Source: Psychroflexus salarius (lineage in GTDB: Bacteria > Bacteroidota > Bacteroidia > Flavobacteriales > Flavobacteriaceae). From it: 64,000 nucleotides of DNA. Positions 20,373-52,084 of the stretch are shown here, piece after piece. The notes beneath the pieces were generated by a model. It made no database searches and was not told the DNA's origin. It saw nothing but the letters and a program-made list of their open reading frames with translations. The stretch covers positions 62,001 through 126,000 of the forward strand of contig NZ_FQTW01000003.1 in the NCBI RefSeq assembly GCF_900129035.1, given 5' to 3'. Position numbers and translations under genes: made by a program. Within the stretch, counting starts at the first letter, position 1. Every line of letters begins with the position of its first letter.

Positions 20373-21704
20373 TTGGAACCTGAACCCTCGAGTTTATTTT
20401 TATTAGTAAGTCTACCAACAGCCGAAATTATTAAACTTGTAATTTTGGTGATATTATTGCTTTGTTCAGCCTTAATCTCTGGTTCTGAAGTTGCCTTGTT
20501 TTCTCTTAAACCAACCGATTTTGATACTGACCACAGCAGTTTAACTCCAAAAGACCATATCTTAATTAGGCTACTTGATCGACCAAAAAAGTTGTTAGCC
20601 ACAATTTTGATTGCTAATAACTTCATCAATATCGCAATTGTACTTATTTATAGCTCTGTAAGTGATTACTTTTTTCAAGGCACGAATATTTATTGGTCAG
20701 GCTTAAGTTTAAAATTACTGATTGATATTGGTTTAGTGACCTTCTTAATTCTTCTATTTGGTGAAATTTTACCCAAAGTTTATGCCAATAGAAATAGTGT
20801 TGAATTTGCCCAATTTATGGCCATTCCGCTTGGTTTTTTAGATAAATTCTTCTCTCCATTAAGCTTGCCTATGCGAGCGGTTACCATTAGCATACATAAT
20901 AAATTTGGTAAACAAAAATCTAACTTAAGTATAGATCAACTTTCGCAAGCGCTAGAACTCACTCATGAAGCTGAAACAACTACAGATGAGAAAAAAATAT
21001 TGAAAGGCATCGTTTCTTTTGGTAACACAGATGTTAAACAAGTCATGAAACCTAGACTTGATATGTTTGCTCTAGAAACGACAACCAAATTTAACGAGGT
21101 ATTAATTCAAATTGTAGAAGAAGGTTACTCAAGAATTCCTGTTTATGAAGAGAATGTTGATAATATTATTGGCATTTTATACGTTAAAGATTTGCTGCCG
21201 TATCGTGATTTAAACAAATTTGAATGGCAAAATTTGTTACGCGAACCTTATTTTGTGCCTGAAAACAAAAAATTAGATGATTTATTAAACGATTTTAAAT
21301 CACAAAAAAACCACTTAGCTATTGTTGTAGATGAATATGGAGGCACAAGCGGACTTATTTCTTTAGAAGATATTATTGAAGAAATTGTTGGAGATATTAG
21401 TGACGAATACGATGATGAGGATTTGATTTTTTCTAAAATTGATGAACATACCTTCATATTTGAAGGGAAAACAGCTCTAAAAGACTTTTACCGTATTTTT
21501 GAACTTGAAGAAGAAGAACAAGAACAGTTTGAAAATGATAAAGGTGAGTCTGAAACTTTAGCAGGTTTTGTTCTTGAAATTTCGAAAAGCCTTCCTATCA
21601 AAAATCAAATAATTTCTTACTTGAGCTATAAGTTTACAATTGAAGTTGTTGATAATAAACGTATTAAACAAATTAAAGTCAAAAAACATGCCTCAAATTC
21701 CTAA
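20373..21704 (+). CDS. gldE: Gliding motility-associated protein GldE (CNNM/CorC-type)
   Basis: A 443-residue membrane protein starting at TTG; no ATG lies near the N-terminus, and the TTG gives the expected short head before the first membrane helix. The N-terminal CNNM (DUF21) domain has several membrane segments (ILVILLLCSALISGSEVALF, ILIANNFINIAIVLIY, VTFLILLFGEILPKVYA). Then come two CBS repeats (about residues 210–330, with YSRIPVYEENVDNIIG and HLAIVVDEYGGTSGLIS) and a CorC/HlyC domain. GldE resembles magnesium/cobalt efflux proteins and supports gliding together with GldD. The gldD start overlaps its end by 17 bases. Confidence 0.9.
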   Translation: MEPEPSSLFLLVSLPTAEIIKLVILVILLLCSALISGSEVALFSLKPTDFDTDHSSLTPKDHILIRLLDRPKKLLATILIANNFINIAIVLIYSSVSDYFFQGTNIYWSGLSLKLLIDIGLVTFLILLFGEILPKVYANRNSVEFAQFMAIPLGFLDKFFSPLSLPMRAVTISIHNKFGKQKSNLSIDQLSQALELTHEAETTTDEKKILKGIVSFGNTDVKQVMKPRLDMFALETTTKFNEVLIQIVEEGYSRIPVYEENVDNIIGILYVKDLLPYRDLNKFEWQNLLREPYFVPENKKLDDLLNDFKSQKNHLAIVVDEYGGTSGLISLEDIIEEIVGDISDEYDDEDLIFSKIDEHTFIFEGKTALKDFYRIFELEEEEQEQFENDKGESETLAGFVLEISKSLPIKNQIISYLSYKFTIEVVDNKRIKQIKVKKHASNS

Positions 21705-22257
21705 GCTATCATGCGTAATTATTTTAGTATTTGGCTTATTGGGTTGTGAATCTAATGTTCAACCTAAGCAAAAGGCCTTTTTAGCTTTAGAATATCAATC
21801 GCCGAGTTATCAATTAATAAAATCTGATTGTCCTTTTCAGTTTGAAATTAACCAAATCGCTAAGATAGAAACGCCACAAAATTTTGATCCTTGCTCCTTT
21901 AATATTCGTTACCCTAAACTTGGGGCTACTATTTTTTTTACCTATAAACCGATTCATAATAACTTGAAATCGCTTTTAACAGATGCCCAAAAACTTCCTC
22001 TTAAGCACACTATAAAAGCTGATGCCATTGAAGCTGATATTTTCACTAATGACGTTGCAAAAACCTATGGTAACTTTTACGAAGTTGAAGGTGACGCAGC
22101 TTCTCAAGCACAATTTTATTTAACCGATAGTTTACAACACTTTGTTACAGGTTCAATTTACTTTAAAACAGCACCTAATTACGATTCAATTTTACCAGCT
22201 GCATCCTATATTAAAAACGACTTAAAGCATATTGTTGAAAGTATGCGCTGGAAGTAA
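21688..22257 (+). CDS. gldD: Gliding motility lipoprotein GldD
   Basis: A lipoprotein of 189 residues from the ATG at 21688, which yields a lipobox (VIILVFGLLGC). The frame is open further upstream inside gldE but gives no signal peptide. The GldD features include SPSYQLIKSDCPFQFEIN, FNIRYPKLGATIFFTYKPI, KADAIEADIFTNDV and the end YIKNDLKHIVESMRWK. It is required for gliding in Flavobacterium johnsoniae and is thought to work with the type IX secretion/gliding apparatus. The stop is immediately followed by a repeat element (22258–22427). Confidence 0.92.
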   Translation: MPQIPKLSCVIILVFGLLGCESNVQPKQKAFLALEYQSPSYQLIKSDCPFQFEINQIAKIETPQNFDPCSFNIRYPKLGATIFFTYKPIHNNLKSLLTDAQKLPLKHTIKADAIEADIFTNDVAKTYGNFYEVEGDAASQAQFYLTDSLQHFVTGSIYFKTAPNYDSILPAASYIKNDLKHIVESMRWK

Positions 22258-22427
22258 TTATACCAAATATTCTGTAATATGAGACAAAAAGAAATTGAAT
22301 TATAATTGTCTTAATCAAGGCAAAAAAATTAATCCCAAAGCATCGGGACTAACTACGTTTCATTTTTTTAACGAAGAGAAAGGCAATTAGAAACTATTTA
22401 TCTCATTTTATGGGAGATTTGGTATTA
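22258..22427 (+). repeat. MITE-like intergenic repeat, copy A
   Basis: A core of 164 bp (22261–22424) begins TACCAAAT and ends in its exact complement. The outer 31 bases of the two ends match in inverted orientation at about 23 positions. TTA flanks both sides (22258–22260, 22425–22427). It is the reverse-orientation relative of 50556–50740: 22281–22336 agrees at 54 of 56 positions and 22357–22402 at all but one. The central hairpin of the other copy is shortened here. It carries no protein. It follows the gldD stop directly and ends about 90 bases before the transporter gene; those 90 bases show nothing I recognise. Confidence 0.85.
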
Positions 22428-22518
22428 GATTTATTATAAAATTTCAACTTGAAATTTTAACCCAAAATTATTAGACAACTTCAATATTAAAATAGACTTT
22501 TGCGCAAAAAATTAAATT

Positions 22519-23409
22519 GTGCCAAATCATTATTTAAAATGGGTGTATTTAATTGCACTATCACTACTTTGGGGAAGTTCGTTTATATTGATAAAAAAAG
22601 GACTTGAAGGCTTAACGCCTATTCAATTAGGTGCCGTTCGTGTATTAATTACTGGTCTTTTTTTATCTGCAATTGGTTTTAAAAAGGTAAAACAAATCAA
22701 GCAGAAACAGTGGTTGTGGATTGCTATATCAGGTTTTATTGGTACACTTTTTCCGAGCATATTGTTTGCCTATGCCGAAACAGAAATAGATAGTGCAATT
22801 GCTTCAATTTTAAACTCAACTGTACCACTATTAGCTTTAATAGTTGGGATTACATTTTTTGGAGCTATGTTTAATAAACAACAATTTTGGGGTGTTTTGG
22901 TAGGCCTTTTAGGTTCGGCTTTACTCATTTTTGCTGGAGCATCTTTAAATCCAGGTCAAAACTATTGGTATGCTCTATTACCAGTTATCGCTTCTTTAAT
23001 GTATGCATTTAATGCTAATATCATTAAATCTTATTTACAAGATATTTCGGCTTTAGGTATTGCAACTGGCTCATTTATCGTTTTAATTCCTTTCGCATTT
23101 GGGCTTCTATTAGCTACTAATTTTTTTGATGCAGACAATTTATCTAATGCTGTGGTGCAAGAGTCACTTTATTATGTGTTAGTTTTAGCTTTATTAGGCA
23201 CAGCCTTAGCAAAAATTATATTTAACCGATTAATTCAATTATCTAATCCTGTTTTTTCAACGTCGGTTACGTATTTAATTCCTGTTGTGGCTTTGTTTTG
23301 GGGTGTGATCGATGGAGAATCTTTTAATTCATACCAACTTGGTGCTGGTGGCGTAATATTGCTTGGTGTGTACTTATCTAACCGAAAAAGAAAATTGAAA
23401 AAATCATAA
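22519..23409 (+). CDS. EamA/DMT family transporter
   Basis: A 296-residue membrane protein starting at GTG, with about ten membrane helices arranged as two EamA repeats. The first begins LIALSLLWGSSFILIKKGLE and the second follows NYWYALLPVIASLMYAFNAN. The motif FSTSVTYLIPVVALFWGVID near the end is typical of the drug/metabolite transporter superfamily. It exports or imports small metabolites across the inner membrane; the substrate cannot be told. The C-terminus is basic (SNRKRKLKKS). It stands alone between a repeat element and a terminator. Confidence 0.9.
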   Translation: MPNHYLKWVYLIALSLLWGSSFILIKKGLEGLTPIQLGAVRVLITGLFLSAIGFKKVKQIKQKQWLWIAISGFIGTLFPSILFAYAETEIDSAIASILNSTVPLLALIVGITFFGAMFNKQQFWGVLVGLLGSALLIFAGASLNPGQNYWYALLPVIASLMYAFNANIIKSYLQDISALGIATGSFIVLIPFAFGLLLATNFFDADNLSNAVVQESLYYVLVLALLGTALAKIIFNRLIQLSNPVFSTSVTYLIPVVALFWGVIDGESFNSYQLGAGGVILLGVYLSNRKRKLKKS

Positions 23410-48301: not shown

Positions 48302-49391
48302 AATTACAATTATTGCAGGTGCAAGACCTAACTTCATGAAAATTGCACCCATCATTGCAGCCATTAACAACGCCAAATCTAAGGGTAAAGCTATTGATTA
48401 TAGATTAGTGCATACAGGACAACACTACGATAAAAACTTGAGCGACACCTTTTTTGAAGAGCTTAATATTCCGCATCCAGATGTAAATTTAGAAGTTAAA
48501 AGCGGTTCTCAAGCTGAACAGACGGCTCAAATAATGACAAAATTTGAAACAGAATTGTTATCAAATCCTGCTGATTTAGTTCTTGTTGTAGGTGATGTAA
48601 CCTCAACCATGGCTTGCGCAATTGTAGCTAAAAAATTGCATGTTGATGTTGCCCATGTCGAAGCTGGCATACGTTCGGGCGATTTAAAAATGCCGGAAGA
48701 GATTAACCGCATGGTTACCGACAGCATTACAGATTACTTCTTTACCACAACCAAATTAGCCAATGAAAATTTGCTAACTTCTGGTAAAACCAAAGAACAG
48801 CTATTTTTAGTAGGTAATGTCATGATTGATACCTTATTCAAAAACATGAAGCGTCTTAAGCAACCTGATTTTTGGAATGAACTCGGCTTAGAAAGTAAGT
48901 CCTATTATGTCATGACACTTCATCGTCCATCTAATGTTGACGAAGAACAACAATTAACCGACTTAATTTCAACCATCGTCGAAAAATCTGAAGGAAAACC
49001 AATTATTTTCCCAGTTCACCCTAGAACCAAAAAACTACTTCAAAATCTTAATCTCAACTATGATCAGCTTCATTATGTAGAGCCACAAGGTTATTTAAAT
49101 TTTATTTATTTAATTAAAAATGCTTTTGCTGTACTCACCGATTCAGGCGGAATTACTGAAGAAACAACCATGATGAATGTACCATGCATAACCTTTAGAG
49201 ATTCTACCGAAAGGCCTGAAACTTGTGAAATTGGCTCTAATGAATTAGTAGGTTCAGACATTTCTAAAATTGAGAAAGCTTTTGAACGTTTAAATGCTGG
49301 ACAGTGGAAACAAGCTGAAGCGCCAGATTTATGGGATGGAAAAACTTCAGAAAGAATTGTAGATGAATTGCTGAAGTTATATGAAGTCTAA
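48294..49391 (+). CDS. wecB: UDP-N-acetylglucosamine 2-epimerase (non-hydrolysing)
   Basis: A 365-residue epimerase with the GT-B fold. It has GARPNFMKIAPIIAAI, LVHTGQHYDKNLSDTFFEEL, VGDVTSTMACAIVAKKL, VEAGIRSGDLKMPEEINR, TLHRPSNVDEE and the UDP-binding VLTDSGGITEETTMM. It makes UDP-ManNAc for surface glycans. The enzymes that would oxidise UDP-ManNAc or turn it into another sugar are not in the window, unless the Ugd-like enzyme at 53153 acts on it, which its sequence does not suggest. Confidence 0.95.
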   Translation: MLKITIIAGARPNFMKIAPIIAAINNAKSKGKAIDYRLVHTGQHYDKNLSDTFFEELNIPHPDVNLEVKSGSQAEQTAQIMTKFETELLSNPADLVLVVGDVTSTMACAIVAKKLHVDVAHVEAGIRSGDLKMPEEINRMVTDSITDYFFTTTKLANENLLTSGKTKEQLFLVGNVMIDTLFKNMKRLKQPDFWNELGLESKSYYVMTLHRPSNVDEEQQLTDLISTIVEKSEGKPIIFPVHPRTKKLLQNLNLNYDQLHYVEPQGYLNFIYLIKNAFAVLTDSGGITEETTMMNVPCITFRDSTERPETCEIGSNELVGSDISKIEKAFERLNAGQWKQAEAPDLWDGKTSERIVDELLKLYEV

Positions 49392-50580
49392 AGACGATAT
49401 TTTAATTATTACAAGTTATTATCCACCAGAAACAGGTGCTGCTTCAAACCGTATTTTCGCGCTTTCAGAACAACTAAAGCATCATAAATATAAAGTGAAG
49501 GTTATATCGCCTTTACCTAATTATCCTTATGGAAAGGTACTTGAAGCTTATCGCAACAAATTCAAGGTAAACGAAGTATTTAAGCAAATTCCTGTCACGC
49601 GTCTTTTTATTTTCGCCAGCAAATCTAATAACAAATTTATTCGTTTATTTTCTATCCTTAGCTACGCCATTAGCTTGTTTTTTTATTTATTGGTAACTAA
49701 AACACCTCAAAGACAAATCATTCAATGTTCGCCTTTATTTGTTGGTTTTTTTGCTGTTCTTGCTGGTAGATTAAGAGGTAAAACACTTATTTTAAATGTA
49801 TCTGACTTGTGGCCACTTGCTGGACTTGAAATGGGTATTTTATCTAAAGGTCTGTATTATCGCATTTTAGAGTATATTGAAGGTTTTATTTACAAGCATT
49901 CAGACCGGATTATTGGTCAATCTGAAGAAATTTTAACCCACATTAAAAAAAATATTAAAACCTCAACAAAACCCTTATTTTTATATCGAAACTTTCCACA
50001 ATTTAATTTACCAAAATCATCAGTTGAAGTACCTCAAGATGAAATTAAGTTTGTCTATGCTGGTTTAATAGGCATTGCTCAAGGTATTGAAGAAATTTGT
50101 AAGCAAGTCAATTTTCCAGAAAATTCAAGCTTTCATATTTATGGTGACGGCCCAAAAGCTAATGAAGTTAAAGCATTGGCTAAGGATAATAAGCGCATTT
50201 TTTATCATGGGAGTTTATCAAGAAACGAGCTACATAAAACCTTAATGCCGTATGATGTAACTATAATTCCACTTAAAAATCGAATTTACGGCTCGGTTCC
50301 ATCAAAAATATTTGAATATAGTAAGCTAGGCTTACCTATTCTATTCTTTTCTGATGGTGAAGGTGCTGATGTTGTGGAACAATTGGGTTTGGGAATAGCA
50401 CAACGTGAAGTAAATTATAAAAGCTTAGAGCGAAATATTGAACAAATCGTACAACAAGAAATCAATCTGCCAACAAAAGCTGAAGTTTTAGCGATTTCAA
50501 AACAAGCCTTTAATTTAGAAACGCAGTTTAAAGCTTTTGAGCAAAGCTGTTTAAATTATACCAAATCTCCCATAAAATAA
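49381..50580 (+). CDS. GT4 family glycosyltransferase (WbuB-like)
   Basis: A 399-residue GT-B glycosyltransferase. It has the N-terminal block ITSYYPPETGAASNRIFALS, VISPLPNYPYGK, a membrane-associating stretch (AISLFFYLLVTKTPQ), ILNVSDLWPLAGLEMGIL and the C-terminal YAGLIGIAQGIEEI and VPSKIFEYSKLGLPILF, typical of the WbuB/fucosamine transferase group. It adds a sugar to the undecaprenyl-linked glycan at the cytoplasmic face. The last six residues (TKSPIK) and the stop come from repeat copy B, so the original C-terminus was probably replaced. Confidence 0.9.
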   Translation: MKSKDDILIITSYYPPETGAASNRIFALSEQLKHHKYKVKVISPLPNYPYGKVLEAYRNKFKVNEVFKQIPVTRLFIFASKSNNKFIRLFSILSYAISLFFYLLVTKTPQRQIIQCSPLFVGFFAVLAGRLRGKTLILNVSDLWPLAGLEMGILSKGLYYRILEYIEGFIYKHSDRIIGQSEEILTHIKKNIKTSTKPLFLYRNFPQFNLPKSSVEVPQDEIKFVYAGLIGIAQGIEEICKQVNFPENSSFHIYGDGPKANEVKALAKDNKRIFYHGSLSRNELHKTLMPYDVTIIPLKNRIYGSVPSKIFEYSKLGLPILFFSDGEGADVVEQLGLGIAQREVNYKSLERNIEQIVQQEINLPTKAEVLAISKQAFNLETQFKAFEQSCLNYTKSPIK

Positions 50581-50740
50581 GACTAATAAATAGTTTCTAA
50601 TTGCCTTTCTCTTCTTTAAAAAAATGAAACTTAGCTAATCCCGATCCCGAAACGTCGGGACGGGATTAATTTTTTTGCCTTGATTTAGACAATTATAATT
50701 CAATTTCTTTTTATCTCATTTCAAAGGATATTTGGTATTA
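50556..50740 (-). repeat. MITE-like intergenic repeat, copy B, with terminator hairpin
   Basis: A core of 179 bp (50559–50737) with ends TACCAAAT/ATTTGGTA and TTA on both sides, inverted relative to copy A at 22258–22427 (aligned over the whole length with small gaps). Its centre has a strong hairpin, 50636–50650 with 50655–50668 (GC-rich, one bulge, four-base loop), followed on the plus strand by seven T, so it can also terminate. The left end lies within the coding region of the glycosyltransferase and provides its stop. The right TTA is the reverse complement of the stop codon of the sugar transferase at 50738. It encodes no protein. Confidence 0.88.
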
Positions 50741-52084
50741 GTAAGCCTTTTTATCACCCTTAATGGCGTTAACAAGTGTTTGAATAATTACTTTTGAATC
50801 CATTAAAACCGACCAATTTTCAAGATAGAAAATATCATACTTAACCCGATTAATAATATCTTGTTCTGTTTCAACTTCGCCTCTATAACCATTCACTTGT
50901 GCTAAACCTGTAATGCCTGGTTTTACAAAATGCCTTACCATAAACTTATCGATACTTTCAGCATACATGTTGGTATGGCTAACCATGTGTGGTCGAGGTC
51001 CTACAACGCTCATATCGCCTAATAATACATTATAAAATTGTGGTAGCTCGTCTATACTAGTTTTACGCATAAATCGACCAATAGCTGTTATACGTCTATC
51101 GTTTTTTCTAACTTGGTGAATATCGGCCTCAGGATTGGGCTTCATCGACCTGTATTTAAAACAATAAAATTCTTTGTTATTTCGGCCGTTACGTTTTTGC
51201 TTAAAAAATACTGGACCTTTAGATTCTATTTTGATAATAATCGCTAGTAAAGGTGTTAACCATGACAATAAACCAACTAAAACTACAGTAGCAAAAACAA
51301 AATCGAAAGTCCTTTTAATGATTCTGTTAACATTATCGTCTAGTGGAATTTTACGCAATGATATAATTGGTAAAACACCATAGTAATCATACTGAATTTG
51401 TTTAGAATAAACATCTTTATTGTCTGGAATAAACTTAAGCACCTTCAGATTATTATCGGCAAAATCAATAAGTAAATTGACTTGTTCATCACTTAGTTGG
51501 CCGACTGATGCATAAATTTCATCTATATCATGATCGATCACATAACTAAAAATTTCACGGAGAATTGGTTCTTTAATTTGAAATACTTTTTGACATTTAT
51601 AGCCATAATCTGGGTTGTTTTCGAAAAAACTATACAGTTGAAGCGAACGTTTTGAGTTTCCTATAATTATTGTATTTCTAAAGTTGCCACCTAATACTTT
51701 TCGATAGCGTTTTAATAAATAATAAACCGATAGCTTAGCGATACCAATACTTGACATCACTGCAACAACAAACCATATTAAGTAATTATTAGGTACTTTT
51801 ATGGCGTCTGTAAAGCCGTAAAAAGCAAAAACAACTAAAGCAAAAACAATAGTTTGAATGGCTATTAAGCTGAGTATTCGTGTTACCCTTGTAAATCTGT
51901 AGACCTCGTAAAATTTGGTTTTAAGGGAAAAAATCAGCCAACATATAAAAAGATAAGCAAAAAATAGACCGTAATCTGCTAAATTGAGCTGTAAGAAATA
52001 AGCAAAAAATGCGATGATGAAAAAATCTATCGCATATGAAATTGGCCTAAGATAACCAGAATATCTGCCTATTCGTTGTTTCAT
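50738..52084 (-). CDS. Polyprenyl glycosylphosphotransferase (initiating sugar-1-phosphate transferase)
   Basis: A 448-residue PHPT of the WcaJ type. It has about four N-terminal membrane helices (PISYAIDFFIIAFFAYFLQ; LFFAYLFICWLIFSLKTKFY; and others to about residue 125), a Rossmann-like domain (NTIIIGNSKRSLQLYSFFEN), a further helix (TFDFVFATVVLVGLLSWLTP) and the catalytic domain with KSRGPVFF-type residues (ESKGPVFFKQKRNGRNNKEF), STSIDELPQ-like KTSIDELPQFYNVLLGDMS, VGPRPHM and KPGITGLAQVNGYRG. It starts repeat-unit assembly on undecaprenyl phosphate. It overlaps the UXS stop by one base (TAATG). Confidence 0.94.
   Translation of the reverse strand: MKQRIGRYSGYLRPISYAIDFFIIAFFAYFLQLNLADYGLFFAYLFICWLIFSLKTKFYEVYRFTRVTRILSLIAIQTIVFALVVFAFYGFTDAIKVPNNYLIWFVVAVMSSIGIAKLSVYYLLKRYRKVLGGNFRNTIIIGNSKRSLQLYSFFENNPDYGYKCQKVFQIKEPILREIFSYVIDHDIDEIYASVGQLSDEQVNLLIDFADNNLKVLKFIPDNKDVYSKQIQYDYYGVLPIISLRKIPLDDNVNRIIKRTFDFVFATVVLVGLLSWLTPLLAIIIKIESKGPVFFKQKRNGRNNKEFYCFKYRSMKPNPEADIHQVRKNDRRITAIGRFMRKTSIDELPQFYNVLLGDMSVVGPRPHMVSHTNMYAESIDKFMVRHFVKPGITGLAQVNGYRGEVETEQDIINRVKYDIFYLENWSVLMDSKVIIQTLVNAIKGDKKAY

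Follow-up and report, generated by a model that had tools for sequence, protein, structure and literature searches.

A MITE-like mobile element of Flavobacteriaceae maintained as a long imperfect hairpin on one strand

Just downstream of gldD in Psychroflexus salarius lies a non-coding element of about 160 bp that has spread through many genomes, and in some of them recently. Its insertion sites are TWA (TTA or TAA), whose 3 bp become duplicated, and it is maintained as a single long imperfect hairpin formed by one of its strands. The reading that we prefer, with confidence that is about evenly balanced, is that of a non-autonomous, MITE-like mobile element which is moved in trans via a folded single strand. 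The element was found in a stretch of 64,000 nucleotides (contig NZ_FQTW01000003.1, positions 62,001 to 126,000), here called the window, and was followed through the host genome and the genomes of its relatives.

The first of the two copies in the window (positions 22261–22424, + strand, 164 bp) starts with TACCAAAT, ends with ATTTGGTA and follows the gldD stop codon (22255–22257), from which it is separated by the left TTA of its 3-bp target duplication (22258–22260); the right TTA occupies 22425–22427. In the family, it is the fold of this + strand that is conserved. The lineage-specific left outer arm (22261–22291, +) pairs with the right outer arm (22402–22424, +), and between them lies the conserved core (22292–22401, +; positions 1–102 of covariance model R1, 93.4 bits), in which the central loop is altered. 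gldD was assigned by TIGR03512 (241 bits), and the ORF downstream of the element has a weak, below-cut-off match to drug/metabolite exporters. The second copy (50559–50737, − strand, 179 bp; core 50586–50706, −, 84.5 bits) is inverted relative to the first (BLASTN E = 7e-44) and lies between convergent genes, with TTA at 50556–50558 and 50738–50740. A preliminary description, made from the window sequence, had proposed a 164-bp element with TTA on both sides, an inverted and likewise flanked second copy, near-identity at 54 of 56 positions over 22281–22336, and no coding capacity. All of this was borne out, including the near-identity in the alignment to copy 2, and no ORF of 60 aa or more overlaps copy 1. 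The inverted ends of 31 bp described there are indeed part of an inverted repeat, which is not confined to 31 bp but runs along the element, its two halves pairing with 50 Watson-Crick matches among 69 aligned arm positions. At copy 2 the insertion altered the 3′ end of ORF 49381–50580 (glycosyltransferase-like by eye), whose last residues and stop are element-derived (window 50556–50580). On the other side, the duplicated TTA at 50738–50740 doubles as the stop codon of ORF 50738–52084 (which reads TAA on the − strand), so that the duplication re-creates the stop of this opposite ORF.

The host genome (2.53 Mb in 47 contigs), searched with a 170-bp query, returned 34 rows, from which 15 full-length copies of 159–179 bp were sorted. 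Nine further rows were shortened, partial or solo-end places (one a 76-bp copy, eight partial, internally deleted or solo-end), and the remaining ten consisted of nine antisense self-matches and a second row of the short copy. Pairwise identity among the 15 full copies was 88–98% over aligned columns (median 93%), and the end motif occurred 40 times vs 0 for a reversed control pattern; the repeat is thus present far above chance. Copies of the element lie next to unrelated genes, whereas a gene-specific structure in the sense of the preliminary description would keep to one gene context. Equal 3-mers flank 13 of the 15 copies on both sides (9 TTA, 4 TAA; Fisher p = 0.0014 for the 9:0 / 0:4 TTA/TAA split), and the two others have TCA/TAA and TCA/TTA. 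Internally shortened variants retain both ends and lie mostly between TWA flanks. Two deletion forms consist of little beyond the outermost stem, one of 28 bp in the host genome (L030, C4:178163-178190; flanks TAA/TAA) and one of 33 bp in a second genome, G202 (L155, region of C10:67000; flanks GTA/TTA).

Insertion with a 3-bp duplication is established by an empty site in a relative together with a pair of segments within one genome. Among 27 genomes of the genus searched with window 21700–23300, the complete genome of a close relative (G018) has gldD joined directly to the next gene, without the element. The junction reads GGAAGTAATTAGGTTT, with a single TTA, and the two matching pieces overlap there by 4 bases; given as GGAAGTAATTAGG, the junction likewise holds one TTA. 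In G202, two copies of one flanking segment (L138 vs L136) differ by the element plus one TTA, and also by one T nearby. Flanks were identical in all 29 scored G202 copies, 16 with TTA and 13 with TAA as read on the + strand of the element; scoring required a strict pattern for both ends and a distinct flank, and left out damaged ends, copies at contig ends and copies sharing identical flanks. Older copies often have differing flanks, namely 5 of 15 in another genome, G245, and 2 of 15 in the host. Scattered copies, target duplication and empty sites, which in the preliminary description would speak for a MITE, are thus supported by the 15 full copies, by G018 and by the G202 flanks. The same empty sites in G018 and G202 refute, as main explanation, a non-mobile regulatory or terminator RNA tied to particular genes: very strong RNA-like covariation and a position between convergent genes in 28 of 76 scored copies would suit it, but unrelated neighbouring genes, target duplications, no bias in gene direction, a copy that interrupts a gene in G020 and the lack of an Rfam family make it extremely improbable.

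Of 62 copies with a clean duplication, 11 sit exactly on the TAA stop of a neighbouring ORF, against 75 of the 2815 remaining TWA sites that lie outside ORFs, an odds ratio of 7.9. A further 21 entries, which had no clean TWA duplication (L103 because of a misplaced boundary), were set aside in this count; it includes L013 and L048, which appear to be one shared insertion counted twice. Since only 2 of 28 recent G202 copies lie on a stop codon, the enrichment looks more like survival than targeting. A TWA target allows the duplication of a TAA stop codon without damage.

The fold was analysed on a MAFFT alignment of 36 lineages with pairwise core scores below 0.86, which remained from 44 elements after removal of two with N and six with near-identical cores. 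RNAalifold gave 47 pairs between columns 9 and 160 of 169, and 40 of these show compensatory changes. The consensus leaves the 8 leftmost and the 9 rightmost columns unpaired, yet these are complementary in single copies. Paired cells made up 91.9% (76.5% in shuffled, 45–60% in slid controls), double-change cells numbered 223 (63.8, sd 7.0, shuffled; 50–74 slid), and the covariation score was 0.454 (0.171 shuffled; 0.07–0.12 slid); none of 500 shuffles was as high on any of five measures. All four helices contribute to the covariation, the outermost with 14 of 14 pairs. The outer stems change yet remain complementary, and the inner core is kept in sequence between genera.

The consensus fold reaches −23.0 kcal/mol on the + strand and −0.74 on the − strand. 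As the + strand had served to derive both model R1 and the RNAalifold structure, we additionally used a symmetric wobble test, in which the left arm is aligned to the reversed right arm with an equal penalty for all mismatches. Across the 36 lineages, G·T mismatches outnumbered A·C mismatches by 181 to 45, with 109 and 11 of these falling in the outer 28 bases. For an inverted repeat that mutates strand-symmetrically, 1:1 is expected, and slid arms give 1.5–2:1. G·T exceeded A·C in 34 of the 36 lineages, which have common ancestry, with one reverse case and one tie. The asymmetry reads alike for single-stranded DNA or RNA. All 36 lineages had the lower minimum free energy on the + strand (mean −43.2 vs −27.7), and so did all 15 host copies. 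The two strands of window copy 1 fold about equally, with −39.9 (z −4.7) on the + and −38.4 (z −5.0) on the − strand, and for the bare element the margin is small as well (−38.3 vs −36.3). Simple ORF calls gave 76 copies in which both neighbours could be scored; of these, 20 were co-directional with and 22 antisense to their neighbours, 28 lay between convergent and 6 between divergent genes, a tally consistent with the corrected placing of L103. Because there is no bias towards the direction of neighbouring genes (20 vs 22), host transcription does not explain the strand preference.

Given that only one strand is favoured for folding, the single-stranded form probably belongs to the life cycle of the element itself rather than arising as a by-product of its inverted ends. 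The most economical reading has the folded + strand taking part in the element's own movement, with double-stranded TWA as the target. An enzyme encoded elsewhere would recognize the folded single strand by its core and outer stem; most simply, replication would expose this strand as a single-stranded DNA hairpin, and the element would then be joined to a 3-bp staggered cut at double-stranded TWA. Covariation and the roughly 10:1 wobble asymmetry of the outer arms lead to a sharp prediction, namely that movement involves the folding of one defined strand. Should controls bear out the wobble test, it could serve to tell structure-selected repeats apart from ordinary inverted-repeat elements.

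Within the genus, 10 of 27 genomes match the query at E <= 0.001, and full-length copies occur in G016, G018, G024 and the host genome. Four contigs of G016 (C8, C77, C67 and C92) break at one position of the core (query 59–65), which is either an assembly effect of identical copies or due to a larger insert at this place. A plain DNA search of 397 genomes of the family (E <= 1e-6) added six other carriers, which match the inner part of the query alone, from about position 30 to 144. Their ends differ from the query, most of them reading TAC...GTA or nearly so, and several of these elements are flanked by TWA. The covariance model R1, built from 17 sequences of the 102-nt core, found this core at E <= 1e-5 in at least 92 of the 397 genomes (host included) and at least 74 of 237 genera; these counts are lower bounds owing to strict filters and to scoring of up to 10 candidates per genome. 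The listed core-model matches are full length. Between genera, it is the inner 102-nt core that is kept and the terminal repeats that diverge. The model confirmed named carriers, among them Ichthyenterobacterium magnum and Flavobacteriaceae bacterium PRS1. In a collection of species genomes, 19 stretches showed the pattern, and 12 of these held 13 core matches. Phage and plasmid collections yielded no copy with two queries, and three pattern matches in viral contigs did not hold the element when inspected by eye.

Recent activity is evident in two genomes. G202, a 5.0 Mb draft, holds 11 full copies of one subfamily at 99–100% identity and a second subfamily, also of near-identical copies, whose core differs but whose ends are similar; the left ends of the two are equal at 19 of 26 positions, and one search pattern finds both. 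End motifs numbered 165 in G202 vs 2 for the control pattern, and 167 vs 0 in G245, which is complete (3.48 Mb). We read 20 G245 stretches picked from the list of end motifs, which are hence not a random sample, and both ends were present in 15 of them. Their sizes fall into classes of 160 bp (2 copies), 210–211 bp (3) and 255–263 bp (10), because two optional modules of about 50 nt occur at fixed places, with 0, 1 or 2 of them present. Ten of the 15 have identical flanks, one of them AAA/AAA. These two genomes offer a short route to the mobilizing enzyme.

A parent insertion sequence with the same ends, suggested in the preliminary description, was not found in the host, in G018 or among the listed ends of G202 and G245. 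In the host genome, each of the 40 ends is either part of a short element or a solo end. One of the solo ends, at C11:19512, is the only end with its nearest facing partner at a distance of 0.5–5 kb; that partner, 3.65 kb from it, is part of a short copy, and ordinary host genes occupy the interval. No wide pair occurred among the 14 of 14 ends examined in G018, and no element of 0.5–5 kb was seen among the 100 of 165 ends listed for G202 or the 100 of 167 listed for G245 (the latter lying outside the reverse-strand ends at about 1.13–3.06 Mb). Seventeen G202 stretches at unpaired or contig-edge ends turned out to be elements of 33–162 bp, solo ends or contig ends. DDE_Tnp_1 (PF01609, E <= 1e-5) was not found in G000 (the host), G018, G042, G245 and G316, which are 5 of the 14 carriers searched. 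Around three of the six PF01609 matches in G202 we saw no inverted repeats like the element ends. The G202 contigs C130, C142, C60 and C108, which carry a transposase match and were read in part, have inverted repeats unlike these ends, and a chance pair in C60 with TACCAAAT inside the transposase frame is without TWA flanks.

These searches bear on the possibility, which we take seriously but rather doubt, that the element is an ordinary MITE, i.e., a deletion derivative of an insertion sequence of a DDE family, mobilized in trans through its terminal repeats. Its parent would have been lost, have diverged or be unsampled, and the fold would be a by-product or a matter of the RNA level. Some known DDE transposases also make a 3-bp TWA duplication, and the IS5 family (IS1031/ISL2) makes a 3-bp TNA duplication, a type that the TWA duplication seen here fits; candidate parents would presumably come from the IS1031 or ISL2 group of the IS5 family, or from a PIF/Harbinger-like relative, with TNA/TWA duplications. 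The terminal repeats and the shortened variants that keep both ends agree with this, and the G202 subfamilies, which combine different cores with similar ends, suggest an enzyme that reads the ends. Against it stand the failure to find PF01609 in five of the 14 carriers, the failure to find a longer element among the ends listed, the divergence of the terminal repeats between genera while the core persists, and the extension of the strand asymmetry into the outer arms. The MITE reading of the preliminary description thus holds for a mobile, non-coding element with inverted ends and a 3-bp duplication, while no parent was found among the ends listed. We call the element MITE-like since one usual defining feature, ends common to an autonomous element, was looked for and not found; the label alone is insufficient because the core and the one-strand fold, and not the terminal repeats, are conserved between genera.

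Less conventional, and in our estimate unlikely, is that the transposing unit would be the complete structured single strand, either as a DNA hairpin that an undescribed enzyme class would integrate at a 3-bp staggered cut or as an RNA copied back into DNA at TWA. The RNA version might arise when read-through transcripts are cleaved at the base of the stem, and would represent a bacterial SINE-like element.

Single-strand transposition by HUH/Y1 enzymes would make the element a REP, REPIN or IS200/IS605 decoy moved by RAYT/TnpA, with TTA as a recognized flank instead of a duplication. The imperfect one-strand hairpin with conserved mismatches would be expected of such an element, as would the failure to find an autonomous copy with the same ends, and some Y1_Tnp match occurs in 27 of 30 genomes searched, in carriers and non-carriers alike. 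Yet the host genome has no Y1_Tnp match, and G018 has only a weak one, inside a frame of 1272 aa. REP/REPIN-RAYT and IS200/IS605 systems make no target duplication and have one defined flank on the acting strand; if the + strand acted, one flank type would be expected here, but TTA and TAA occur at 16:13, and empty sites within and between genomes have one TTA where filled sites have two. We therefore consider this explanation improbable. Two Y1 genes near elements were considered as partners and rejected. In G020 (C60, L245 1297–1929), a Y1 (RAYT-like) transposase gene seems to be broken in its 5′ part by a TAA-flanked element, which would be an insertion in it, and in G245 an IS200-like gene adjoins an element, with no common ends seen.

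Full-text literature searches returned no description of such an element in Flavobacteriaceae. Rfam 15 has no family on the window, only sub-threshold matches at chance level on the element, and none on the element of 12 relatives. With neither an Rfam family nor a paper found, the element family appears to be unnamed; it amounts to a widespread mobile-hairpin family in a large bacterial family, with recent spread in some genomes. REPIN/RAYT, IS200/IS605 and integron attC sites share with it the one-strand imperfect hairpin with conserved mismatches; unlike these systems, the element has a 3-bp duplication and both orientations of the target strand, and its host genome lacks a Y1 match. Boxes like those of attC were seen by eye in some AT-rich subfamilies only and were dropped, the ends in the host's own genus and in G202 being without them. 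ERIC is of similar size, an imperfect palindrome common to many genera, and duplicates TA instead of TWA; we know of no mobilizer for it. It differs in host group and sequence, and is not known to show the one-strand covariation present here. Bacterial MITEs such as QMITE, RUP and Correia, as reviewed in PMC10969869, are likewise short, AT-rich, non-coding, intergenic and hairpin-forming, with inverted ends, target duplication and many copies. In contrast to MITEs in that account (PMC10969869), the element has no parent with the same ends that we could find, a core found across at least 74 genera with diverging ends, and pairing that is kept along most of its length and favoured on one strand. 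In modular build, the nearest known system is BOX of Streptococcus pneumoniae (PMC3049150), which resembles the element in terminal repeats, target duplication, RNA-like fold and modularity. Its hairpin module may be absent or repeated, and the G245 copies with 0, 1 or 2 extra modules of about 50 nt resemble this; BOX differs in sequence and in its module plan boxA-boxB-boxC (PMC3049150).

One of the two G245 modules (L308–L327) follows AGATAGAAA in the left arm, the other precedes CGAATTAT in the right arm; with their similar ends, they resemble another small mobile hairpin that is nested inside the element. At L141 in G202 (C49), elements from two different subfamilies lie head to tail with a common TAA flank. 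Another G202 repeat, CCGCTTTATG(C/T)AATAGAAGG..., occurs at L134 1454–1621 and L166 186–352, once inside an element.
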